Shown here: positions 9,345 through 36,515 of the stretch, one piece after another
How positions within the stretch are numbered: the first letter of the stretch is position 1
How the letters are laid out: the number at the start of each line of letters is the position of its first letter
Source: Cognatishimia sp. MH4019
Lineage (GTDB): Bacteria; Pseudomonadota; Alphaproteobacteria; Rhodobacterales; Rhodobacteraceae
DNA: 64,000 bases
NCBI RefSeq assembly: GCF_020177595.1
Contig: NZ_JAHTBL010000006.1
Coordinates: 1 to 64,000, forward strand
Direction of reading: 5' to 3'
The notes under the pieces: generated by a model
What the model was told of the DNA's origin: nothing
The model's database searches: none
Seen by the model: only the letters and a program-made list of their open reading frames with translations
Made by a program: the position numbers and the translations under genes

Positions 9345-10886
9345 ATGAACCAGCTCAAACCCCGCCGTTCCGGAGGTCGCGCCGCCCGCAAAGCGCTGCG
9401 CGCCGCCCCGCTGACCGAAGATGTGCGCCCAGTGCGCGCAGGCCTTGAAGGGGGCACCTATAACCCGCTGACCAACGCCGATATCGCGCGTATCCACGAC
9501 GCCGCCCTGACGGCGCTGGAAACCATCGGTTTGGCCGATGCGCCGCAAAGTGGCATCGAGGTGATGACCAAAGCCGGAGCGATCCTCGGTGAGGATGGCC
9601 GCCTGCGTTATCCCCGCGCCTTGATCGAAGACATGCTGAGTGTGGCCGCCAAGGACCTGACCCTATGCGCCCGCGATCCGCAGCATGATCTGGACCTCAG
9701 CGGCACCAAAGTGCATTTTGGCACTGCAGGCGCAGCGGTGCATATCGCCGATCCGGTCACCGGCGACTACCGCGATAGCACCTTGCAGGACCTCTACAAG
9801 GCCGCCTGCCTTGTCGACCGTTTGGACAACATCCACTTTCTGCAACGCCCTATCGTCGCACGTGATATCGCGAACAACCGCGAGATGGATCTGAACACGA
9901 TCTACGCTTGCGTCAGCGGCACCACCAAGCATATCGGCACCTCAATCTCCGAGCCGGATTTCTGTGCCGATGTGCTGGAACTTTTGCACATGATCGCCGG
10001 GTCCGAGGATGCGTGGCGCGCGCGTCCCTTCGTGCTGAACTCCAACTGCTTTGTCGTCCCACCGATGAAATTCGCGACCGAATCCTGCGAAACGATGGAG
10101 GCGATGATCCGGGGCGGCATGCCGGTTTTGTTGCTCTCAGCCGGGCAGGCGGGCGCTACCGCACCTGCACCAATTGCAGGAGCCATCGTGCAGGCGGTCG
10201 CCGAATGTCTGGCTGGTGTTGTCTATGTGAACGCCATCGCGCCCGGTCATCCGGCGGTTTTCGGCACATGGCCCTTTGTGAGCGATTTGCGGACGGGGGC
10301 GATGTCGGGCGGTTCCGGCGAGCAGGCGCTGCTGACCGCTGGGTGTGCTCAGATGGGGCGGTTTTACGGGCTACCTTGTGGCGCGGCGGCAGGCATCGCG
10401 GACGCCAAGTTGCCCGACATGCAGGCGGGTTGGGAGCAGGCGATGTCGAACGTCATGGCCGGTCTGTCGGGCTTGAACATGGTTTATGAGGCTGCGGGTA
10501 TGCATGCGTCCCTTCTGGGATTTTGTCAGCAATCTCTAGTGCTTGGGGATGATCTGCTGGGGCAGGCCCTGCGCTGTATTCGCGGCATCGAGGTGAATGA
10601 GGACACGCTCAGCCTTGAGACGATGGCGGCGACATGTGTCGGCGGGCCGGGCCATTATCTAGGCAGTGATCAGACCCTGCGACTGATGCAGACCGAGTAT
10701 ATTTACCCTGAGACAGCGGACCGGTCCTCTCCCAAGGAATGGGAAGAGCGCGGCAAGCCCGACCTTCTGGAAAACGCGACTGCGCGCATGCAGGCCATAT
10801 TGGCGGAAGGCAGCCGATGCCGCCTCGCTGCTGACGTGGATCAGGCGATCCGGGCGCGGTTCAACATCCATTTGCCCGCCGGGTAA
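9345..10886 (+). CDS. MttB/MtgB superfamily methyltransferase, non-pyrrolysine type
   Basis: This is a 513-residue member of the trimethylamine methyltransferase (MttB, COG5598) family. Such proteins demethylate quaternary or tertiary amines, such as glycine betaine in MtgB, and pass the methyl group to a corrinoid protein. Family-like segments include YNPLTNADIARIHDAALTAL, SGTTKHIGTSISEP and the C-terminal GHYLGSDQTLRLMQTEYIYP. The frame is read through with no in-frame stop, so it is not the pyrrolysine form. No corrinoid protein or activator gene lies nearby, so the methyl acceptor and substrate are unknown. The leader is strongly structured. Confidence 0.85.
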   Translation: MNQLKPRRSGGRAARKALRAAPLTEDVRPVRAGLEGGTYNPLTNADIARIHDAALTALETIGLADAPQSGIEVMTKAGAILGEDGRLRYPRALIEDMLSVAAKDLTLCARDPQHDLDLSGTKVHFGTAGAAVHIADPVTGDYRDSTLQDLYKAACLVDRLDNIHFLQRPIVARDIANNREMDLNTIYACVSGTTKHIGTSISEPDFCADVLELLHMIAGSEDAWRARPFVLNSNCFVVPPMKFATESCETMEAMIRGGMPVLLLSAGQAGATAPAPIAGAIVQAVAECLAGVVYVNAIAPGHPAVFGTWPFVSDLRTGAMSGGSGEQALLTAGCAQMGRFYGLPCGAAAGIADAKLPDMQAGWEQAMSNVMAGLSGLNMVYEAAGMHASLLGFCQQSLVLGDDLLGQALRCIRGIEVNEDTLSLETMAATCVGGPGHYLGSDQTLRLMQTEYIYPETADRSSPKEWEERGKPDLLENATARMQAILAEGSRCRLAADVDQAIRARFNIHLPAG

Positions 10887-28347: not shown

Positions 28348-28507
28348 GGACGTCTCCCTTTTCGTTGGTTCAAATATAGCGCAATGCGGCCGCGTGGCGA
28401 GCTGCCCTGACGCGTAGGCGCAGCACAACAAATGGCGGTTCACGCGCGCACATCCGCAAGATATAGTGATTCGACGACTCGGCGCTTTTCCAAAGGATCC
28501 GACCCAG

Positions 28508-29341
28508 ATGCAGCAGTATCACGACGCCCTTCAAACCGTCCTCGACCAGGGAGAGGTCTCAACCGACCGCACCGGGACCGGCACGCTCAGCTATTTCGGC
28601 CTGCAAGCACGCTACCCGTTGGCCGATGGCTTTCCGCTGGTGACCACGAAGAAATTGCACCTCAAATCCATCGTGCACGAGCTGTTATGGTTCCTCGCAG
28701 GCGACACAAATGTCGGATATCTCAAGGAAAACGGGGTTTCGATCTGGGATGAATGGGCAGATGAAAACGGCGATCTGGGGCCTGTCTACGGCTCTCAATG
28801 GCGGCGATTTCCGGCGCTTACACCCACCGGCGATCAGAAAGACGGCGCGCCGACCTTCTTTGCCCACCATGTGGATCAGATCGAAAAACTGGTGGAGGCA
28901 ATCCGGAAAACCCGCGACAGTCGCAGACTGATCGTCTCTGCCTGGAACCCTGGCGAGGTCGATAATATGGCGCTGCCGCCCTGTCACACGCTTTGGCAGG
29001 TGCGCATCATCGGCGGTAAACTGCATCTGCAACTTTACCAACGCTCTGCGGATATGTTCCTGGGCGTGCCGTTCAACATCGCGTCCTACGCGCTGCTTTT
29101 GGCGATGCTGGCCCACGTCACGGGCTATGAGCCGGGCGATTTCGTCCACTCCATTGGCGATGCCCATATCTATTCCAACCATATGGATCAGGTGAAAACC
29201 CAGCTTGCCCGCAGCCCCAAAGCGCTGCCGAAACTGGTTATCAAACGCGATGTAACGTCGATTTTTGACTTTACCTTCGATGACTTCGCGTTTGAGGGAT
29301 ACGATCCTGATCCCGCCATCAAAGCACCGGTGGCCGTCTGA
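28508..29341 (+). CDS. thyA: Thymidylate synthase
   Basis: ThyA makes dTMP from dUMP and methylenetetrahydrofolate. The 277-residue protein has the folate-site and loop motifs: [40 protein letters not shown], the catalytic cysteine in LPPCHTLWQ, and the [19 protein letters not shown] region, with [14 protein letters not shown] near the end. ATG 28508 (MQQYHDAL) starts the family; the frame runs back to 28466. It overlaps folA by 1 nt (TGATG), the classic thyA-folA pair that recycles dihydrofolate. Confidence 0.96.
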
Positions 29342-29817
29342 TGCTCAGCCTGATCGTGGCCCGCGCACGTCATGGGGCGATTGGAAAGGACAATGAGATC
29401 CCGTGGCATCTGCCAGAAGACCTTAAGCTATTTCAGCGCGAGACGCTGGGCGGGGCGATCATCATGGGGCGCAAAACCTGGGATAGTTTGCCTTACAAGC
29501 CCTTGAAAAGCCGATTGAATATTATTGTTTCGCGCGATGCGTCACTGACTGATCACGTTGCAACATCCCCGCAGGAAGCGGTCTCAATAGCCTATGCACA
29601 AGGCTACCGCCGCGTTTACGGGATTGGGGGCCAGCGCATATACACAGAAATGTTGCCCATCGCTGACCGCTTGCTCATCACAGAAGTCGATCTTGAGATC
29701 GCCGACGCAGACGCCTTCTTTCCTGAATTCAAGGAAAGCGATTGGCGCGAGCTTGGCCGCAGCGAGATCACAGGCGACGGCCCTGCGGCGGTCATGCGCG
29801 AATTGATCCGCGCCTAA
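29341..29817 (+). CDS. folA: Dihydrofolate reductase
   Basis: FolA reduces dihydrofolate to tetrahydrofolate with NADPH. The 158-residue enzyme has the family motifs: GAIGKDNEIPWHLPEDLKLF near the start (with Trp and the catalytic acid Asp or Glu in LPED), GAIIMGRKTWDSLP, and GGQRIYTEMLPIADRLLITEVD. Coupled to thyA by a 1-nt overlap. Its end overlaps the convergent small gene by 4 nt. Confidence 0.95.
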   Translation: MLSLIVARARHGAIGKDNEIPWHLPEDLKLFQRETLGGAIIMGRKTWDSLPYKPLKSRLNIIVSRDASLTDHVATSPQEAVSIAYAQGYRRVYGIGGQRIYTEMLPIADRLLITEVDLEIADADAFFPEFKESDWRELGRSEITGDGPAAVMRELIRA

Positions 29818-30101
29818 CCCTCAAAACCTACGCGGATAGCACGCTCGGCTTTTTGGCGCAGATCAGCCACGATGTCAGGATTGTCGGCCTCCCATGATTT
29901 GAACCCCAGATAGCCGTGCTGCATCTGCTCAAATCGGGCGAGGCTGCCGCGCGGTGCCAGATCGAAGCTTGGAACGAAATAGGTCTTCACCGTCTCATAG
30001 GTCTGGGTGCATCGCAGGACCTCTTCGCCAGACATGGGGCGCAGTGCTGCGGTGCTGTCGCAAATGTAGTAAAGCGCCAAAACGGCGAGAAAATCGGACA
30101 T
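29814..30101 (-). CDS. Small protein of unknown function preceded by a PhaR-like operator
   Basis: This 95-residue protein starts with MSDFLAVLALYYICDSTAALRP, a short hydrophobic segment that could be a signal peptide or membrane anchor, and has two cysteines (ICDS, RCTQ). It contains CTQTYETVKTYFVPSFDLAPRG. I do not recognise the family. The frame extends to 30182, but ATG 30101 is preferred (AGGAGA 6 nt upstream). A perfect TTGCTGCG-A-CGCAGCAA palindrome lies 119 nt upstream, which contains the CTGC-N3-GCAG sequence used by PhaR. That links it to PHA metabolism only by inference. Confidence 0.7.
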   Translation of the reverse strand: MSDFLAVLALYYICDSTAALRPMSGEEVLRCTQTYETVKTYFVPSFDLAPRGSLARFEQMQHGYLGFKSWEADNPDIVADLRQKAERAIRVGFEG

Positions 30102-30219
30102 AACGCGTCTCCTGTATAGGCGGAGACGGGTAGGCCTCCGCAGGTTGCGGTGTCCTCCCCAGCGCGACGTTGCGCGCATCATGAGTGTTGCATGAACTGG
30201 TTAACAAATCGCCGATAAA

Positions 30220-30236
30220 TTGCTGCGACGCAGCAA
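30220..30236. promoter_or_regulatory. 17-bp perfect palindrome, candidate PhaR operator
   Basis: TTGCTGCG-A-CGCAGCAA is a perfect dyad and includes CTGC-GAC-GCAG (30223-30233), the CTGC-N3-GCAG form reported for PhaR of Paracoccus and Rhodobacter (from memory). It closely resembles the site in the phasin promoter at 53300-53316 (TGCTGC-N3-GCAGCA in both). The nearest start it could control is the minus-strand gene at 30101. Confidence 0.5.
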
Positions 30237-30287
30237 ATGTCGCGATGCAAGCTTAGATACGCGGCTGAATGCTGTGAAATCAGGCAT

Positions 30288-30320
30288 AAAAAAAGCCGCC
30301 CCTCGAAAGGCGCGGCTTTT
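30288..30320 (-). terminator. Rho-independent terminator of cspA
   Basis: The stem AAAAGCCGC/GCGGCTTTT (30291-30299 with 30312-30320), extended by CCT/AGG around a CGAA-type tetraloop, is followed on the minus strand by seven T. It ends 24 nt from the cspA stop and is a textbook intrinsic terminator. Confidence 0.9.
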
Positions 30321-30343
30321 AGGTTTGGGGGGTTGGGGAACGC

Positions 30344-30550
30344 TTACAGCGCTTTCAACTCGCCTGCCGACTGACGGCCGTCACGGCCTTCGATCATCTC
30401 GTATTCGATCTTCATATTGTCGGCGAGGCCTGTCATGCCTGCGCGTTCCACGGCGGAAATATGGACGAAAACGTCCTTACCGCCGTCATCGGGTTCGATA
30501 AATCCGAACCCTTTTGTGGTGTTGAACCATTTCACGGTGCCAGTGGCCAT
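30344..30550 (-). CDS. cspA: Cold-shock domain protein
   Basis: This 68-residue CSD protein binds single-stranded nucleic acids and probably acts as an RNA chaperone. RNP1 is KGFGFIEP (residues 14-21) and RNP2 is DVFVHISAVERAG. The ribosome-binding site (AAGGAGAAGAC) precedes the ATG at 30550. A strong intrinsic terminator follows. It could be cold-induced or growth-phase regulated; several paralogues are usual, so cold induction cannot be assumed. Confidence 0.95.
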   Translation of the reverse strand: MATGTVKWFNTTKGFGFIEPDDGGKDVFVHISAVERAGMTGLADNMKIEYEMIEGRDGRQSAGELKAL

Positions 30551-30707
30551 CCGTCTTCTCCTTCAATTTGCCGCTGCAGAGCGGATCGTGGCCTTGGTCA
30601 GACTTGTGATCTCACGGGACGAGGCCGCCCCCCGCAAGTTCATGAATGTAATTTTAGACCGATTACCAAAAAAACAAGGGTGCGCCCCGTGGGTTAACAT
30701 GGTTTTC

Positions 30708-30736
30708 ATGGCTCAACCTCTTGGAGAAGGAGCCAT
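30708..30736 (+). promoter_or_regulatory. Hairpin holding the ribosome-binding site of the Spx/ArsC-like gene
   Basis: ATGGCTC (30708-30714) pairs perfectly with GAGCCAT (30730-30736) over a 15-nt loop. The Shine-Dalgarno sequence AAGGAG (30727-30732) overlaps the 3' arm, 5 nt before ATG 30738. The 7-bp stem is short, so this may be chance. Confidence 0.4.
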
Positions 30737-30737
30737 T

Positions 30738-31061
30738 ATGCAGTTCTACGGGCTAAAAACCTGCGATACCTGTCGCAAAGCACAAAAATTACTCACCGAG
30801 GCGGGGCATTCGGTCACAGTGACCGATGTGCGTGCCGATGGCGTCTCCCGCGCTGATCTAGAGCGGTTTCACGCGGCTTTCGGCGATGCGCTGGTGAATA
30901 CACGCTCGACCACGTGGCGCGGGTTGAGCGATGAAGACCGCGCGCGTGACCCGATCGCGCTGTTGCTGGACCACCCGACATTGATGAAGCGCCCGGTGAT
31001 TGAGGCCGATACGCTCTACCTAGGGTGGGGCAAGGACGTGCAGGCTAAGTTGATCGGCTAA
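30738..31061 (+). CDS. Arsenate reductase-like/Spx-family protein
   Basis: This 107-residue thioredoxin-fold protein belongs to the ArsC/Spx/YffB group. It starts MQFYGLKTCDTCRKAQKLL with the CxxC pair CDTC (residues 9-12), then has NTRSTTWRGLSDEDR and HPTLMKRPVIEAD, the RP-V motif of the family. It resembles the YffB (Spx-like) branch, which is not a true arsenate reductase. The ATG at 30738 is supported by AAGGAG; the frame extends upstream without support. It converges with the DoxX gene (17-nt overlap). Confidence 0.85.
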   Translation: MQFYGLKTCDTCRKAQKLLTEAGHSVTVTDVRADGVSRADLERFHAAFGDALVNTRSTTWRGLSDEDRARDPIALLLDHPTLMKRPVIEADTLYLGWGKDVQAKLIG

Positions 31062-31590
31062 GCAGTCGGTCAAGCGACAGCGGACCAGCGCCACGAAAGA
31101 CCAGCACGAGCAGCGGGAAGACCCACATTGCGCGCTGATCCGCGATCAGGCTGGAGGCCCCTTTGTCGAACCACGCACCGATATCGGCGGCGGCCAGATT
31201 GTGGCCTGTGATATCGACCAGCGTTTGCACCGCGATAAACACGATCATCCCAAGGCTCGACAGGCGCGTGAGCAGGCCCAGCACGATCAGAACGGGCAGG
31301 ATGAACTCTGCCCAGGTGCCTGCGACCACGACCAGCCAGTGAAACGCGTTCAATTGCGAGGTGTCATAACCCACCGCCTCGACCGCTTTCGGGAAGATTT
31401 GGATATAAGCGCCGCTGGAGGGTCTGAGAAAACCCAGTACGCCTTCGCCCAGTTTTGTTGTCGCTGAAGACCAATAATAGCTGAACAGCACCGCAGCGAA
31501 AAGGACGCGGGCAAGGGTTGGCGTGACCCAATCTGCGCTGCGATCCAGCGCTGCTGCTGTGCGATTGTGTAAGGAAATCAAGCTATTCAT
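31045..31590 (-). CDS. DoxX-family membrane protein of the bufferin operon
   Basis: This 181-residue protein has four predicted membrane helices (about 28-45, 82-102, 108-128, 153-170) in the DoxX layout (LARVLFAAVLFSYYWSSATTK at the start; VAGTWAEFILPVLIVLGLLTRLSSLG in the middle). DoxX genes often close bufferin and HvfABC-type operons, where the protein may pass electrons or help maturation in the membrane. It overlaps bufC by 4 nt (ATGA). Its biochemical role is not proven. Confidence 0.85.
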   Translation of the reverse strand: MNSLISLHNRTAAALDRSADWVTPTLARVLFAAVLFSYYWSSATTKLGEGVLGFLRPSSGAYIQIFPKAVEAVGYDTSQLNAFHWLVVVAGTWAEFILPVLIVLGLLTRLSSLGMIVFIAVQTLVDITGHNLAAADIGAWFDKGASSLIADQRAMWVFPLLVLVFRGAGPLSLDRLLSRST

Positions 31591-32342
31591 GTCGGTGGTC
31601 CAATCGTGAGTGACGTCAGAGCGCTAGCGCCTAAGAGACATCCCAGTGTCGCGCTGAGATCGAAATCGGGATGCGTTTGGGTGACGCTCTCGAACGCGGT
31701 GCCGAGGGTCTCGCCTTGGCCAAGTGCTGAGATGAATGTCGCAGCACCCATGGGCAAAAGCGTTTGCACCGGATCAAATTCGGGCCGCGCGATCATGACG
31801 TCTTGCGCCTGCATTTGTGGCTTTGGGCCACCTGCCATGTTGAACTGCCAAAGCGCGTGGATCGGCCACTCCGATGTCACGATCCGCAGCGCTGGGGCCA
31901 GCGTGAAGCGCGCCTGCATCAGGTCCTCAGGCGCCAAGGCTCCCAGCGTTTCGGATGCAATCGGGGTGCTGTCAGCGCTATGATAGGCCTCCCGTATTGC
32001 AATCTCGAGCCGGGCGACATCCGCAAGGTAAGGCAGATGGGCGACAGGCTCGAAGCTGCGCAGAAACTCTGGCATGGCCGCGCCGTAATACATCATCAGC
32101 GCCGAACTGGGCGGATGTGCGCGCAAATAAACTCCCGCCATGGCGCGGAAAAACTCGTCGCCGAGCAGTTTATGGATGACCGGAAACGCTGTTTCCAAGG
32201 CGTCCGTCAGGCTGACGGCGACGTTATTGCGATAGACATCGAAACGCTTGGGGGCAGGGCGGCCCTGAGGGTCGACCAAGCCGTCCGGCACGGCGCTTTT
32301 GGGATCAAGCAACGCCTGTGTGAAATCAGTTTGATCGGTCAT
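31587..32342 (-). CDS. bufC: DUF2063 protein, BufC-type maturation partner
   Basis: This 251-residue protein has the DUF2063 N-terminal domain ([16 protein letters not shown], then [25 protein letters not shown] and [20 protein letters not shown]) followed by an alpha/beta region. DUF2063 proteins pair with DUF692 enzymes (MbnC with MbnB in methanobactin synthesis; BufC with BufB) and recruit or present the precursor peptide. The start at 32342 overlaps the bufB stop as ATGA and fits the family start MTDQTDFTQ. It overlaps the doxX gene by 4 nt. Confidence 0.88.
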
Positions 32343-33196
32343 TGTGCCAACTGCGCGAGTGCGGCCTCGGCCCGGGCGGCTTCGGCGGCCAGAACCGGCC
32401 ATTCGGGCACGTCATTGTCCCATTCGATCAGCGTGGGCTTTGCCCCGCCGCGGGCAATCGTGTGGTCATAAAGCGCCCAGACTGGATCAACGACGGGCTT
32501 GCCATGGCTGTCGATCAGCAAGGTCGCGCCATGGTCGTCTTCATCCTCGTCATGCCCGCCAAGGTGAATTTCTCCAACCTTATCAAGGGGAAAGGCGTCG
32601 ATATAGCTGAGCGGATCGGTTTGTTGATTGGTGGCGGAGACAAAGACATTGTTCACGTCAAAAAGCAGCCCGCAGCCGGTGCGCGTCGCGATCTCCGACA
32701 GGAAATCGACCTCAAGCATATCGCTTTCGGAAAACGCCAAATAGGTCGAAGGGTTCTCCAGCAGCATTCGCCGGCCGACGGCCTCTTGCACCTCGTCGAT
32801 ATGGTCACAAACCCGCGCCAAAGTCGCCGCCGTGTAAGGCAGGGGCAGCAGGTCATTCAGGAAGTGGCTGTCATGAGTGGACCACGCCAGATGCTCCGAA
32901 AAGCTGGCTGGTTTCAGCCAGCCGATCAGGTGCTTGAGGCGCGCGAGGTGTTCAGGGTCAAGACGGCCTTCGCCGCCGATGGACAGGCCTACGCCATGCA
33001 CCGAAATGGCAAAACGTTCGGCCAAGGCGCGCATTTGCGCCAGAGGGCGGCCACCGGCGCCCATGTAATTCTCTGCATGGATTTCCAACCAGGCCACGGG
33101 GCCAGGGTCTGCCATGATCTCTGCGAAATGCTGGGGTTTATAGCCCACGCCGGGTTTGTTTGGCAGGCGGTCGAAAGGGGGGGACGCATCAAGCAT
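32339..33196 (-). CDS. bufB: DUF692 multinuclear iron enzyme, BufB-type maturase
   Basis: DUF692 enzymes (MbnB family) are TIM-barrel proteins with iron centres that oxidise cysteine in ribosomal peptides. All the expected metal-ligand segments are visible: [65 protein letters not shown] and [11 protein letters not shown]. The start at 33196 ([12 protein letters not shown]) has AAAGAG 7 nt upstream; a TTG at 33217 is a weaker alternative. The gene is separated from bufA by 72 nt with a hairpin and overlaps bufC by 4 nt. Confidence 0.9.
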
Positions 33197-33223
33197 GAGG
33201 GGTCTCTTTGTCGTCAAAGCGAT

Positions 33224-33252
33224 GAGCCCTCGCCACTGGGAGGCGAAGGCTC
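33224..33252 (-). terminator. Hairpin between bufA and bufB, candidate attenuator
   Basis: GAGCCCTCGCC (33224-33234) and GGCGAAGGCTC (33242-33252) form an 11-bp stem with one mismatch and a 7-nt loop. On the minus strand it follows the bufA stop and is trailed by ATCGCTTT, not a full T-tract. It may reduce readthrough or protect the bufA mRNA end so that more precursor than enzyme is made. Confidence 0.6.
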
Positions 33253-33268
33253 AAAGGTGCGCTATGGC

Positions 33269-33574
33269 TTATGCCGGCAGGTCGCGGTCCAGCTCTTCGA
33301 GAGACCCCGAACGCTCGGTGCCATCGGCCATTGCGGGAAGCTCGATGTCAGCGCAGGTTCCGGCCTCAACGAGGGTCCAGGCATTGCCCTGATAATCGAC
33401 AGTCGAGGTGCCAGCGCAGGACGTGCCGGGGCCTGCTGCGCAGTCATTTTCGCCAGCCAACGAAACACCGAAGCACTTTTCTTGGGCTTGCGCGTGAACG
33501 GGCGTGGTCATCTGAACGGAAAGGGCAGCGGCAACGGCGCCAGCAACGGCGAGAGTTTTTGCGGTGGTCGACAT
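33269..33574 (-). CDS. bufA: BufA1-type bufferin precursor (DUF2282), exported metallophore
   Basis: This 101-residue precursor has a signal peptide (residues 1-28, ending PVHA) and the pattern of DUF2282/BufA1: EKCFGV, ENDCAAG, SCAGTS and AGTCADIEL, with Cys at 34, 45, 53 and 74. In characterised bufferins such cysteines are converted by BufB/BufC to thiooxazole-type rings or form a disulfide, and the peptide binds copper in the periplasm (from memory of Caulobacter work). The start at 33574 ([10 protein letters not shown]) is chosen because it begins the signal peptide; the frame extends to 33601. The tail after Cys74 is acidic and Cys-free. Confidence 0.88.
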
Positions 33575-33668
33575 GAGGTAGAATTCCTTCGTGTTGGTCA
33601 TGAATGTCGCGATGTGCGATAGCCAGACCTTAGAAGGCCGATCATGTCACGCACCACTCACATGCCTG

Positions 33669-33698
33669 TGTAACACGGCCCCGTCAGGAACTGTAACA
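33669..33698. promoter_or_regulatory. Two TGTAACA repeats upstream of bufA
   Basis: TGTAACA occurs at 33669-33675 and 33692-33698, a 23-nt period, about 95-125 nt upstream of the bufA start. A direct repeat at this spacing could be an operator or sigma-factor element. No regulator gene adjoins, and the function is unknown. Confidence 0.3.
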
Positions 33699-33794
33699 AA
33701 TGGTATGCGGTTGTATTCTAACTTTAAGCGACTGAAAACGCTTGTAAATACGACGTTCAAAAAGTGGGCGGCACGTGGTGCACGCGCCTCTTTA

Positions 33795-34283
33795 TCACCC
33801 GGCAAGGCGCATTTTTGCCATTTGTGTTTCATAACCGACCGACTCGTCGCTGGCAGTCGCCGTCATTGACGGACACCAGACACTGCCCACCAGCATGAAT
33901 CCGTCTTGCTCCAACATCAGTTGAGTAAAGCGCAGATCATGCAGGACCGGCAGCCGATCTGTTCCGCAGAGCAGCGCTTTGGCGGCAATAACGCGCGTCT
34001 CCGCCTGTCCGGGCCCATCGCAGAGCACGATCTCTTGGGTCGGGGCCATAATCAGATCGCGGCAGGGGGCGTTTTCAGTCAATGTCCCTGCGCGCAGTCG
34101 CACCGGTTGCACACCCGGCGCCCGCGCCACTTCGCGGGCAGAGAGTTGTGTGTGCCCCACCCAAACGACGCGGGCCAGCTTGCCCGCGAGTGTCAAGATG
34201 CGGTCGCCCGGCACCAAGCGTTCAATGGTGCGTAGGCCGAAACCTGTTTCCACTTCCGTGCCGTGCAAAAACCCGTAGCTCAT
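33795..34283 (-). CDS. Short Hint-domain protein lacking the catalytic cysteine
   Basis: This 162-residue protein consists of a Hint_2-type (hedgehog/intein) domain. GTEVETGFGLRTIERLVPGDRI aligns with the usual GTLIATPTGLRRIEDIAVGD of the other Hint protein in this window, but the Cys before it (CFxxGT) is replaced: here GFLHGT. Without Cys, autoprocessing is unlikely. No signal peptide. Its ribosome-binding site sits in a small perfect hairpin. Roseobacter Hint proteins are often exported or linked to calcium-binding repeats; this short form has neither. Confidence 0.75.
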   Translation of the reverse strand: MSYGFLHGTEVETGFGLRTIERLVPGDRILTLAGKLARVVWVGHTQLSAREVARAPGVQPVRLRAGTLTENAPCRDLIMAPTQEIVLCDGPGQAETRVIAAKALLCGTDRLPVLHDLRFTQLMLEQDGFMLVGSVWCPSMTATASDESVGYETQMAKMRLAG

Positions 34284-34286
34284 AGG

Positions 34287-34309
34287 AACCTCATAGCGTT
34301 GCTGAGGTT
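34287..34309 (-). promoter_or_regulatory. Hairpin holding the ribosome-binding site of the Hint gene
   Basis: On the minus strand, AACCTCA pairs perfectly with TGAGGTT over a 9-nt loop. The GAGG in the 3' arm is the ribosome-binding site, and the hairpin ends 3 nt before the ATG at 34283. It is one of four such arrangements in the window. Confidence 0.45.
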
Positions 34310-34430
34310 AAAATGGCGTTTAGAGGAGCGTGCCGAACGGGGAAAAACGGCTCAACCGCCTCAAAACGCAGGGCTCTGAGGGGCTAAGCCATTCATCTTC
34401 AAAACTTTTTGCAGGGCTTGGTTGGCTTTC

Positions 34431-36377
34431 TTACGCCACGTCGGGCGCTTTCGCCTCCGCTCCCAGATCACGCAAAACATCCTGCAGCGCTTGGACCGAG
34501 GTCTGCTTTTCGCCCAAACGACGCAAGGACACCGTGCCTTCGTCCACTTCGCGCTGCCCGCAAGCCAGAATCACGGGGACCTTGCCAAGCGAGTGTTCGC
34601 GGACTTTGTAGTTGATCTTTTCGTTGCGGATATCGGCCTCAGCCCGCACGCCCGCCTTGCGCAAAGCGGCCACGACCTCGTGCACATACGCGTCCGCATC
34701 CGACACGATGGAGGCGACAACCACCTGACGCGGCGCCAGCCAGAAGGGCAGGCGGCCGGCTGAGTTCTCGATCAGGATACCGATAAAGCGTTCAAATGAC
34801 CCCAGCGTCGCGCGGTGTAGCATCACAGGCCGGTGCTTGGCGCCGTCTTCACCAATATAATTCGCATCCAGCCGTTCAGGCAGCACGAAATCCACCTGAT
34901 GGGTGCCGCATTGCCAATCCCGCCCGATGGCATCGGTCAGAACAAACTCCAATTTCGGTCCATAGAACGCGCCTTCTCCGGGGTTGAGTTCCGGCTCGAT
35001 CCCTGCCGCACGGGTCGCGTTCAACAAAGCCTCTTCCGCCTTGTCCCACACTTCGTCCGATCCTGCGCGCATCTCTGGTCGGTCCGAGAATTTCACCTTG
35101 AAGCTATCGAAGCCCAAGTCGTGATAAACCTTCGACAAGAACTCGATAAACTCCGCGGTCTCGGATTCAATCTGGTCTTCGCGGCAGAAGATATGCCCAT
35201 CATCCTGCGTGAACCCGCGCACCCGCATGATACCGTGCAGTGCGCCTGATGGCTCATACCGGTTGCACGACCCGAACTCGGCCATCCGCAACGGCAGATC
35301 ACGATAGGATTTCAAGCCCTGGTTGAAGATTTGCACGTGGCACGGGCAGTTCATCGGCTTCAGTGCGTTCACCGATTTCTCGCGCGCGTGTTCCTCGTCC
35401 ACCTCGACGATGAACATATGCTCTTGATACTTTTCCCAGTGCCCTGAGGCTTCCCACAATTTGCGGTCCACGACCTGAGGCGTGTTCACCTCGACATACC
35501 CGCCATCCTGCTGACGGCGGCGGACGTAATCCTGCAGTTCAGTATAGATGCGCCAGCCATTCGGATGCCAGAAAATCTGCCCCGGCGCTTCTTCCTGCAT
35601 ATGAAACAGGTCCATCTCGCGGCCCAGCTTGCGGTGATCGCGCTTGGCGGCTTCCTCCAGCATGTGCAAATGCTTGCGCAGCTCTTCCTTATTGGTGAAG
35701 GCCACCCCGTAAATCCGCTGGAGCATCGCGCGGTCACTGTCGCCGCGCCAATAGGCACCCGCGACGCTCATCAGCTTGAACGCATCCGCAGGCACCTGTC
35801 CGGTATGCTGTAAATGCGGGCCACGGCACAGGTCCTGCCAGTCACCGTGCCAATACATCCGCAAAGGTTCATCACCGGGAATGCTGTCGATCAACTCAAC
35901 CTTATAGGGCTCGCCTGACGCCTCATAATGCGCAACCGCGCGCGCGCGGTCCCACACTTCCGTGCGGACTGGGTCGCGCTTGTTGATGATCTCTTTCATC
36001 TTCCTTTCGATGAGGCCCAGATCTTCGGGCGTAAACGGCTCGGCGCGATCAAAATCGTAATACCAGCCGTCCTTGATGACCGGTCCGATGGTCACCTTCA
36101 CATCCGGCCAAATCTCTTGCACCGCGCGCGCCATGATATGCGCAAGATCGTGGCGCACCAGTTCCTCGGCAGGCTCGCGGTCTTTCATCGTGTTGATCGC
36201 AATCGAGGCGTCTGCTTCAATCGGCCACTGCAAATCCCAATGCGCGCCATCAACGGTCGCCGAAATCGCTTTCTTGGCGAGCGAGTTGGAGATACCAGCC
36301 GCGATCTCAGCAGGGGTCACCCCGGCGTCAAAATCACGCGCATTGCCATCAGGAAAAGTCAGAGAGATTTGGGCCAT
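34431..36377 (-). CDS. thrS: Threonyl-tRNA synthetase
   Basis: ThrS charges tRNA-Thr. It has the N-terminal TGS-like region, the editing domain with [11 protein letters not shown] and [10 protein letters not shown], and the class II core with NCPCHVQIF (zinc-site Cys) and [14 protein letters not shown], then [18 protein letters not shown] (motif 3) and the anticodon-binding domain ending before [12 protein letters not shown]. 648 aa is normal. The start at 36377 has AGGAG at a suitable distance; a GTG at 36386 is too close to that site. A full editing domain is retained. Confidence 0.96.
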
Positions 36378-36515
36378 CAAAGGCACTCCTCGTCAGTTTG
36401 GCGCCCACGGAACGCCCGGTTGCGGGTTATGTATGCGGTCCAAATGCCGAAAGGGGCCTGCGCTGTCAACGCCGCCCCTTTCACTTTGGTAAAAATATCC
36501 GCGCCGCAGGCAAAC

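Follow-up and report, generated by a model that had tools for sequence, protein, structure and literature searches.

How are bufferin genes switched on in a genome that has no match to NrsF, the negative regulator known from Caulobacter? To address this question, we investigated the bufA-bufB-bufC-doxX operon of Cognatishimia sp. MH4019 (Rhodobacteraceae), which lies in a stretch of 64,000 nucleotides (nt; contig NZ_JAHTBL010000006.1, positions 1 to 64,000), hereafter the window. Our best explanation is a Buf1-type (captophorin) copper-buffering operon that is here under a candidate activator other than SigF, and we put the probability of this joint explanation at roughly 0.88. The gene content and order, the iron ligands of the enzyme, the predicted fold of its partner, a tandem operator, a hairpin, and the missing NrsF match are observed; the peptide chemistry, the link to copper, what the hairpin does, and the activator itself are inferred. 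The original bufferin paper reportedly appeared in PNAS in 2024.

The operon encodes a Buf1-type bufferin system

An earlier note on this DNA had proposed a bufferin-type copper operon, and every testable sequence feature of the Buf1 family bears out the bufferin assignment. All four genes lie within the span noted, as one block on the minus strand (31045-33574; Table 1). The 4-nt overlaps that were said to join them are present between bufB and bufC (32339-32342) and between bufC and doxX (31587-31590), whereas bufA and bufB are separated by 72 nt. Alternative starts are also open for bufA (33601) and for bufB (TTG at 33217).

BufA matches Pfam PF10048 (DUF2282), a domain equated with Buf1 (PMC12452194), with 83.7 bits (cut-off 22.4). 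When translated from the ATG at 33574, it carries the four predicted cysteines (Cys34, Cys45, Cys53, and Cys74) in columns that are invariant in the alignment, and all 110 precursors of a set selected for similarity to that of the window have the four core cysteines. Its N-terminus comprises a hydrophobic, Sec-type signal-like stretch that, by eye, ends in PVHA, as in relatives. L001 and L002, being copies of the window, were omitted from this comparison. Buf2 precursors contain 6 or 12 cysteines, and with four cysteines and 16.9 bits against the Buf2 model NF050166 (cut-off 60), BufA falls outside that group. An AlphaFold2 model of BufA (34 of 68 eligible loci plus the window) had a mean predicted local distance difference test score (pLDDT) of 48.0 and was too poor for use. 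Outside the Pfam match, the C-terminal tail RxGSLxxLxRDLPA (33272-33313) is kept even where the preceding linker is deleted, and its RD[LIVM]P part is found in 109 of the same 110 precursors. Three members of the family (L116, L118, and L119) lack this part, and we rejected the tail as a family invention because, by eye, RD[LIVM]P also occurs outside the family (L135, L146, L158, and L160). Another locus, L129 (G009:C18:55405-56032), has a tandem pair of bufA genes, with an upstream operator recognizable by eye only in part.

The next gene after the precursor, bufB, encodes the predicted DUF692/MNIO enzyme, with 345.3 bits to Pfam PF05114 and 375.6 bits to the NCBIfam bufferin maturase model NF050167 (cut-off 310); among solved chains, its sequence matches 3bww (DUF692/COG3220), chain D of 8hci (a DUF692 family protein), and MbnB. 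The earlier note had also credited BufB with all metal-ligand motifs. Seven of the eight Fe ligands of VcMbnB (PMC8888699) were aligned, the eighth being outside the aligned range. The counterparts of these seven and of the Fe3-loop His211 are H102, E147, D180, N183, H211, D229, E258, and H231, each of which is invariant in 143 of 143 BufB rows, a set that includes the window and has 141 distinct sequences. For the remaining ligand, His55 of VcMbnB, the probable counterpart is H67, itself present in 143 of 143. Moreover, D260 is invariant and aligns with VcMbnB Asp240; it is likely the counterpart, assigned without direct alignment to FonB, of FonB-Asp249, the proposed catalytic base (PMC13097082).

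BufC is the expected DUF2063 partner (PF09836, residues 4-94, 95.3 bits, cut-off 27.2). Its AlphaFold2 model, built from 35 sequences (34 of 75 eligible loci plus the window), had a mean pLDDT of 94.3, and the best Foldseek hits were TglI (8hci, 8hi7; TM-score on query 0.61, root-mean-square deviation 7.5) and the DUF2063 protein NGO1945 (3dee; 0.54 and 5.7), over most of the chain. The DoxX assignment was likewise confirmed (PF07681, 28.0 bits, cut-off 23.6), and a Pfam cut-off is thus exceeded by every one of the four proteins.

Among known systems, Caulobacter CC3254-CC3257, likened to the operon of the window at the level of protein families, comprise DUF2282, DUF692, DUF2063, and DoxX genes in identical order (PMC3511200). 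Caulobacter Buf1 is reported to bear copper-chelating thiooxazoles, and in Buf1 the central cysteines are modified, the first and last are disulfide-bonded, and the product confers copper protection (PMC12452194). Fontiphorin, oxazolin, and other MNIO-PME1 clusters (captophorins), for which 5-thiooxazole chemistry is reported (PMC13097082), share with the window an MNIO enzyme, a DUF2063/RRE partner, and a Cys-rich precursor; however, the fontiphorin and oxazolin precursors contain EGKCG repeats, whereas that of the window belongs to the DUF2282 group. In methanobactin MbnABC, the alignable Fe ligands of MbnB are common to BufB; unlike Buf1, methanobactin precursors are described as lacking a Sec signal peptide, and the system serves copper acquisition rather than copper protection (PMC12452194).

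The view that this product is very likely novel was not supported, as one survey lists DUF2282 precursor genes in 4072 genomes (PMC12452194, Table 3), and close BufA homologs were found in 46 of 81 searched relatives. Of 289 genomes sampled across the class, 100 contain DUF2282. As with any strain's protein, this precise peptide has not been described, but nothing more than that is meant by calling it undescribed; the operon is ordinary and adds one member to a large family. A database scan confirmed at least 510 such stretches, and in the best 80 of these, bufA and bufB matches are present in 80 of 80 (that of bufB is split in two pieces in L105) and all four genes in 76. The genome of MH4019 itself contains a single DUF2282 match and a single MNIO match, which adjoin each other as bufA and bufB.

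A tandem operator precedes bufA

Most sampled Rhodobacteraceae with bufA, including MH4019, carry upstream of this gene the pattern TNAC-N6-GTGA twice, with a 15-bp period, followed by a weakly conserved -10-like box. Motif discovery in bufA upstream regions returned a 40-column element of 34.7 bits with the core consensus TgACGnnnnCGTGAnnCACGggCcCGTGAgTgG and an extra TNAC 10 bp upstream. Near copies among the 109 upstream regions were removed before learning, which left 96, the window's own region among them; the motif exceeded 20 bits in 86 of the 109. In a hold-out analysis with training on one half and testing on the other, 37/48 and 36/48 regions scored above 15 bits, with 0/960 shuffles in each case. 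At a near-fixed distance, columns 60-67 from the operator start favor CTAnnTT (∼50-67% per column, 73 non-redundant loci). The end of the operator lies about where a -35 box would be, which suggests that it binds an activator. Within the literature on bufferins, their families, SigF/NrsF, and roseobacters, as covered by titles and abstract openings with few subscription papers, we found no description of this operator.

The operator is found where NrsF is missing

Caulobacter operons that match that of the window depend on SigF, which binds GTAACC-N16-CGAA (PMC3511200, PMC8224329); the SigF regulon is copper-induced, and a sigF mutant is copper-sensitive (PMC8224329). There, sigF and the gene for its negative regulator NrsF (CC3252-CC3253) adjoin the operon by gene number. 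In the window genome, by contrast, no such promoter was found, its place being taken by the tandem operator, and NrsF had no match, so that no SigF/NrsF pair stands beside the cluster. Since adjoining SigF/NrsF is found in only part of the Buf1 family (DoxX, too, is frequent and not universal), NrsF is an optional feature, and Buf1 membership stands without it.

We then compared 34 genomes of the same family that contain bufA. NrsF was present in eight of them, always on the same contig and within 3 kb of bufA; two further family genomes (G032 and G039) have NrsF and no BufA match. The operator exceeded 20 bits in none of the eight NrsF genomes versus 20 of the 26 without NrsF (Fisher p = 1.7e-4, uncorrected for kinship), whereas a SigF-like promoter (GTAAC-N15-18-CGAA within 250 nt) was present in six of the eight versus none of the 26 (Fisher p = 2.1e-5, also uncorrected for kinship). 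One SigF-like match at -361 in the NrsF-less G040 lies beyond 250 nt and was not counted. At a cut of 12 bits, 143 labelled loci fell into 89 with the operator, 19 that are SigF-like or NrsF-linked, 35 with neither signal, and none with both. These are the 159 loci considered (outside which lie L001, L002, L024, and loci after L162) minus eight same-genome repeats, seven with no or a short BufB (L105, L136, L140, L148, L151, L160, and L162), and one with an unreadable precursor; NrsF was sought among them with three query proteins, which missed the profile-found cases L114, L121, and L123. Both comparisons overlap the loci used for motif training, and the half-split hold-out is the independent test.

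Several observations weigh against the proposed copper operon under non-SigF control. The NCBIfam models BufA2, HvfC (47.7 bits for BufC, cut-off 142), and HvfX (33.1 bits for DoxX, cut-off 80) scored below their cut-offs, and only the BufB model passed. No copper gene was noticed adjoining the operon among the neighbors in 28500-36500, and no regulator was recognized by eye among the recurrent gene groups flanking the best 80 loci. Neither signal is present in 35 of the 143 labelled loci, although at least one of these (L114) has NrsF beside bufA by profile search. On a BufB tree (made by a quick method, with several long branches flagged), the 19 SigF-type rows are spread over one 12-row group (nine), an operator-rich group (three), and other places (seven), and the mutual exclusion of operator and NrsF amounts to 1 to 3 independent informative pairs, for which a sign test is not significant. 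With so few pairs, the exclusion could partly reflect shared ancestry, and we regard the apparent switch between operator and SigF as a lead, not proof. Within Yoonia, the cluster of Yoonia vestfoldensis SKA53 (L107) is NrsF-linked, and three other sampled loci (L085, L094, and L106) carry the operator; the L107 BufB groups with a SigF-type lineage, perhaps through transfer.

A hairpin separates precursor and enzyme genes

The bufA-bufB gap contains a hairpin that folds at -28.6 kcal/mol (z = -3.73). Across 109 gap regions, mostly from relatives, the median z was -2.57, and 76 were below -2, compared with 13 of 109 upstream controls; the stems differ in sequence among relatives. Near copies were kept among the 109 of 110 gaps (30-200 nt) that were folded. 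In 37 of 110 cases the BufB match starts after residue 1, and there the folded stretch runs slightly into bufB. An intrinsic terminator in the gap was rejected, as no terminator-like site was found.

Taken together, we propose the following model. In this lineage, SigF/NrsF would probably not drive transcription; a candidate activator, bound to the tandem operator just upstream of the promoter, would do so instead. The hairpin probably keeps precursor mRNA above enzyme mRNA. BufA would be made with a Sec-type signal peptide. By homology to studied systems, BufB, held by BufC, would oxidize the central Cys45 and Cys53 to thiooxazoles in the cytoplasm; the peptide would then be exported, a Cys34-Cys74 disulfide would close, and mature BufA would buffer excess periplasmic copper by chelation. 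DoxX would probably contribute to defense against linked redox or thiol stress.

Specificity of the operator and alternative explanations

Without mismatch, the core pattern, which was derived from bufA sites, has 13 matches in 81 whole genomes, 12 of them at bufA, and a reversed control has none; the window operator, with one mismatch, is not among the 13. This concentration argues against a global regulator that acts on many genes through such operators, with bufA only having the best copy, a reading that we consider possible and rather doubtful. A pattern derived from bufA would let degenerate sites elsewhere escape, and a weaker copy with identical -10 spacing does precede a putative transporter gene (L165), for which no Pfam family was found, both in MH4019 (16.8 bits) and in a congener (15.4 bits). 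However, the site is missing at the orthologs in three other genomes (49 searched), and we rejected the transporter as a conserved target. When two mismatches were allowed, the window genome yielded 18 matches versus 6 for the reversed control (3-fold), but five of the 18 are a single near-identical repeated element (G000:C22:80050, C4:40327, C12:335108, C21:137758, and C21:167413). Among the 11 of these 18 that were viewed in context, another precedes a gene for a Met/Lys-rich small lipoprotein (G000:C5), which resembled a copper target and was rejected because the gene was found in 1 of 61 genomes. When the half-site pattern was loosened, three genomes yielded 9 matches versus 8 in the control, with bufA as the sole recurring site by matched strings. 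Two more operator-like strings are common to the window genome and the congener (L168/L214 and L180/L206). ChvI was rejected as the regulator, its reported motif TTGC-N3-GCAA (PMC9731502) being unlike the operator. On balance, we slightly favor the view that bufferin control has been rewired in Rhodobacterales, with a new transcription factor replacing SigF/NrsF through a tandem operator almost exclusive to bufA.

It is unlikely that the cluster chiefly serves against a different metal or some thiol-reactive stress (gold, silver, cadmium, or chromate) instead of copper. In Caulobacter, chromate and cadmium act as further inducers of the operon (PMC3511200), some bufferin clusters are named gold-induced genes, with other roles discussed (PMC12452194), and the inducer may differ in this lineage since the regulator seems different. 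In the same organism, however, cells with inactivated sigF grew much more poorly in the presence of copper, while their sensitivity to chromate and cadmium was reported to be about that of the wild type (PMC8224329), which favors copper buffering. Finally, a structured, riboswitch-like RNA in place of a DNA operator is highly improbable: the element is strongly conserved and built of inverted repeats, but the -10-like box is located downstream of it, its mirrored positions 12/17 (GC 39, GT 21, AC 14, AT 9, CC 2, GA 1) are close to independence with no co-variation, positions 9/20 are mostly G-G, and no Rfam family reaches its cut-off over it.

Genomic surroundings of the operon

In 28500-36500, the neighbors of the operon are a gene for a Hint-domain protein (PF13403) and open reading frames (ORFs) that we take from their sequences to encode a threonyl-tRNA synthetase, an ArsC-like protein, a cold-shock protein, a dihydrofolate reductase, and a thymidylate synthase. 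In 64 of the best 80 loci, the upstream flank has an ORF resembling that of the presumed threonyl-tRNA synthetase, which indicates that the place of the operon is old and stable.

Elsewhere in the window, the plus strand has an Rfam PYLIS_3 match (10396-10494, 46.4 bits, cut-off 38) inside an uninterrupted ORF of 513 residues (9345-10886), apparently an MttB-type gene, as named from the Rfam description. Since this ORF has no in-frame stop, there is probably no pyrrolysine signal there.

Table 1. Coordinates of the bufferin genes and associated elements in the window (aa, amino acids)
Feature	Position	Strand	Description
Tandem operator	33654..33696	-	TTAC-N6-TGAC-N6-GTGT, then CAC-N6-GTGAGTGG; 41.8 bits to motif
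-10-like box CTAAGGT	33627..33633	-	Operator distance as in relatives
bufA	33269..33574	-	101-aa Buf1 (DUF2282) bufferin precursor
12-bp hairpin in bufA-bufB gap	33223..33253	-	No T run after it
bufB	32339..33196	-	285-aa MNIO (DUF692) bufferin maturase
bufC	31587..32342	-	251-aa DUF2063 + RRE-like partner protein (PME-type 1)
doxX	31045..31590	-	181-aa DoxX-family membrane protein

Implications for bufferin control

In the papers cited, bufferin control is known from Caulobacter, where it runs through SigF/NrsF, and a different regulator seems to be in use in many Rhodobacteraceae; the conserved upstream switch suggests that their bufferin genes are turned on differently from those of this studied relative. 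If the rewiring is true, a major marine lineage would harbor a bufferin-specific sensor of copper (or of another stress) that awaits discovery. The very specific operator site provides direct bait for such a regulator, which would show a metal-stress peptide put under new control.

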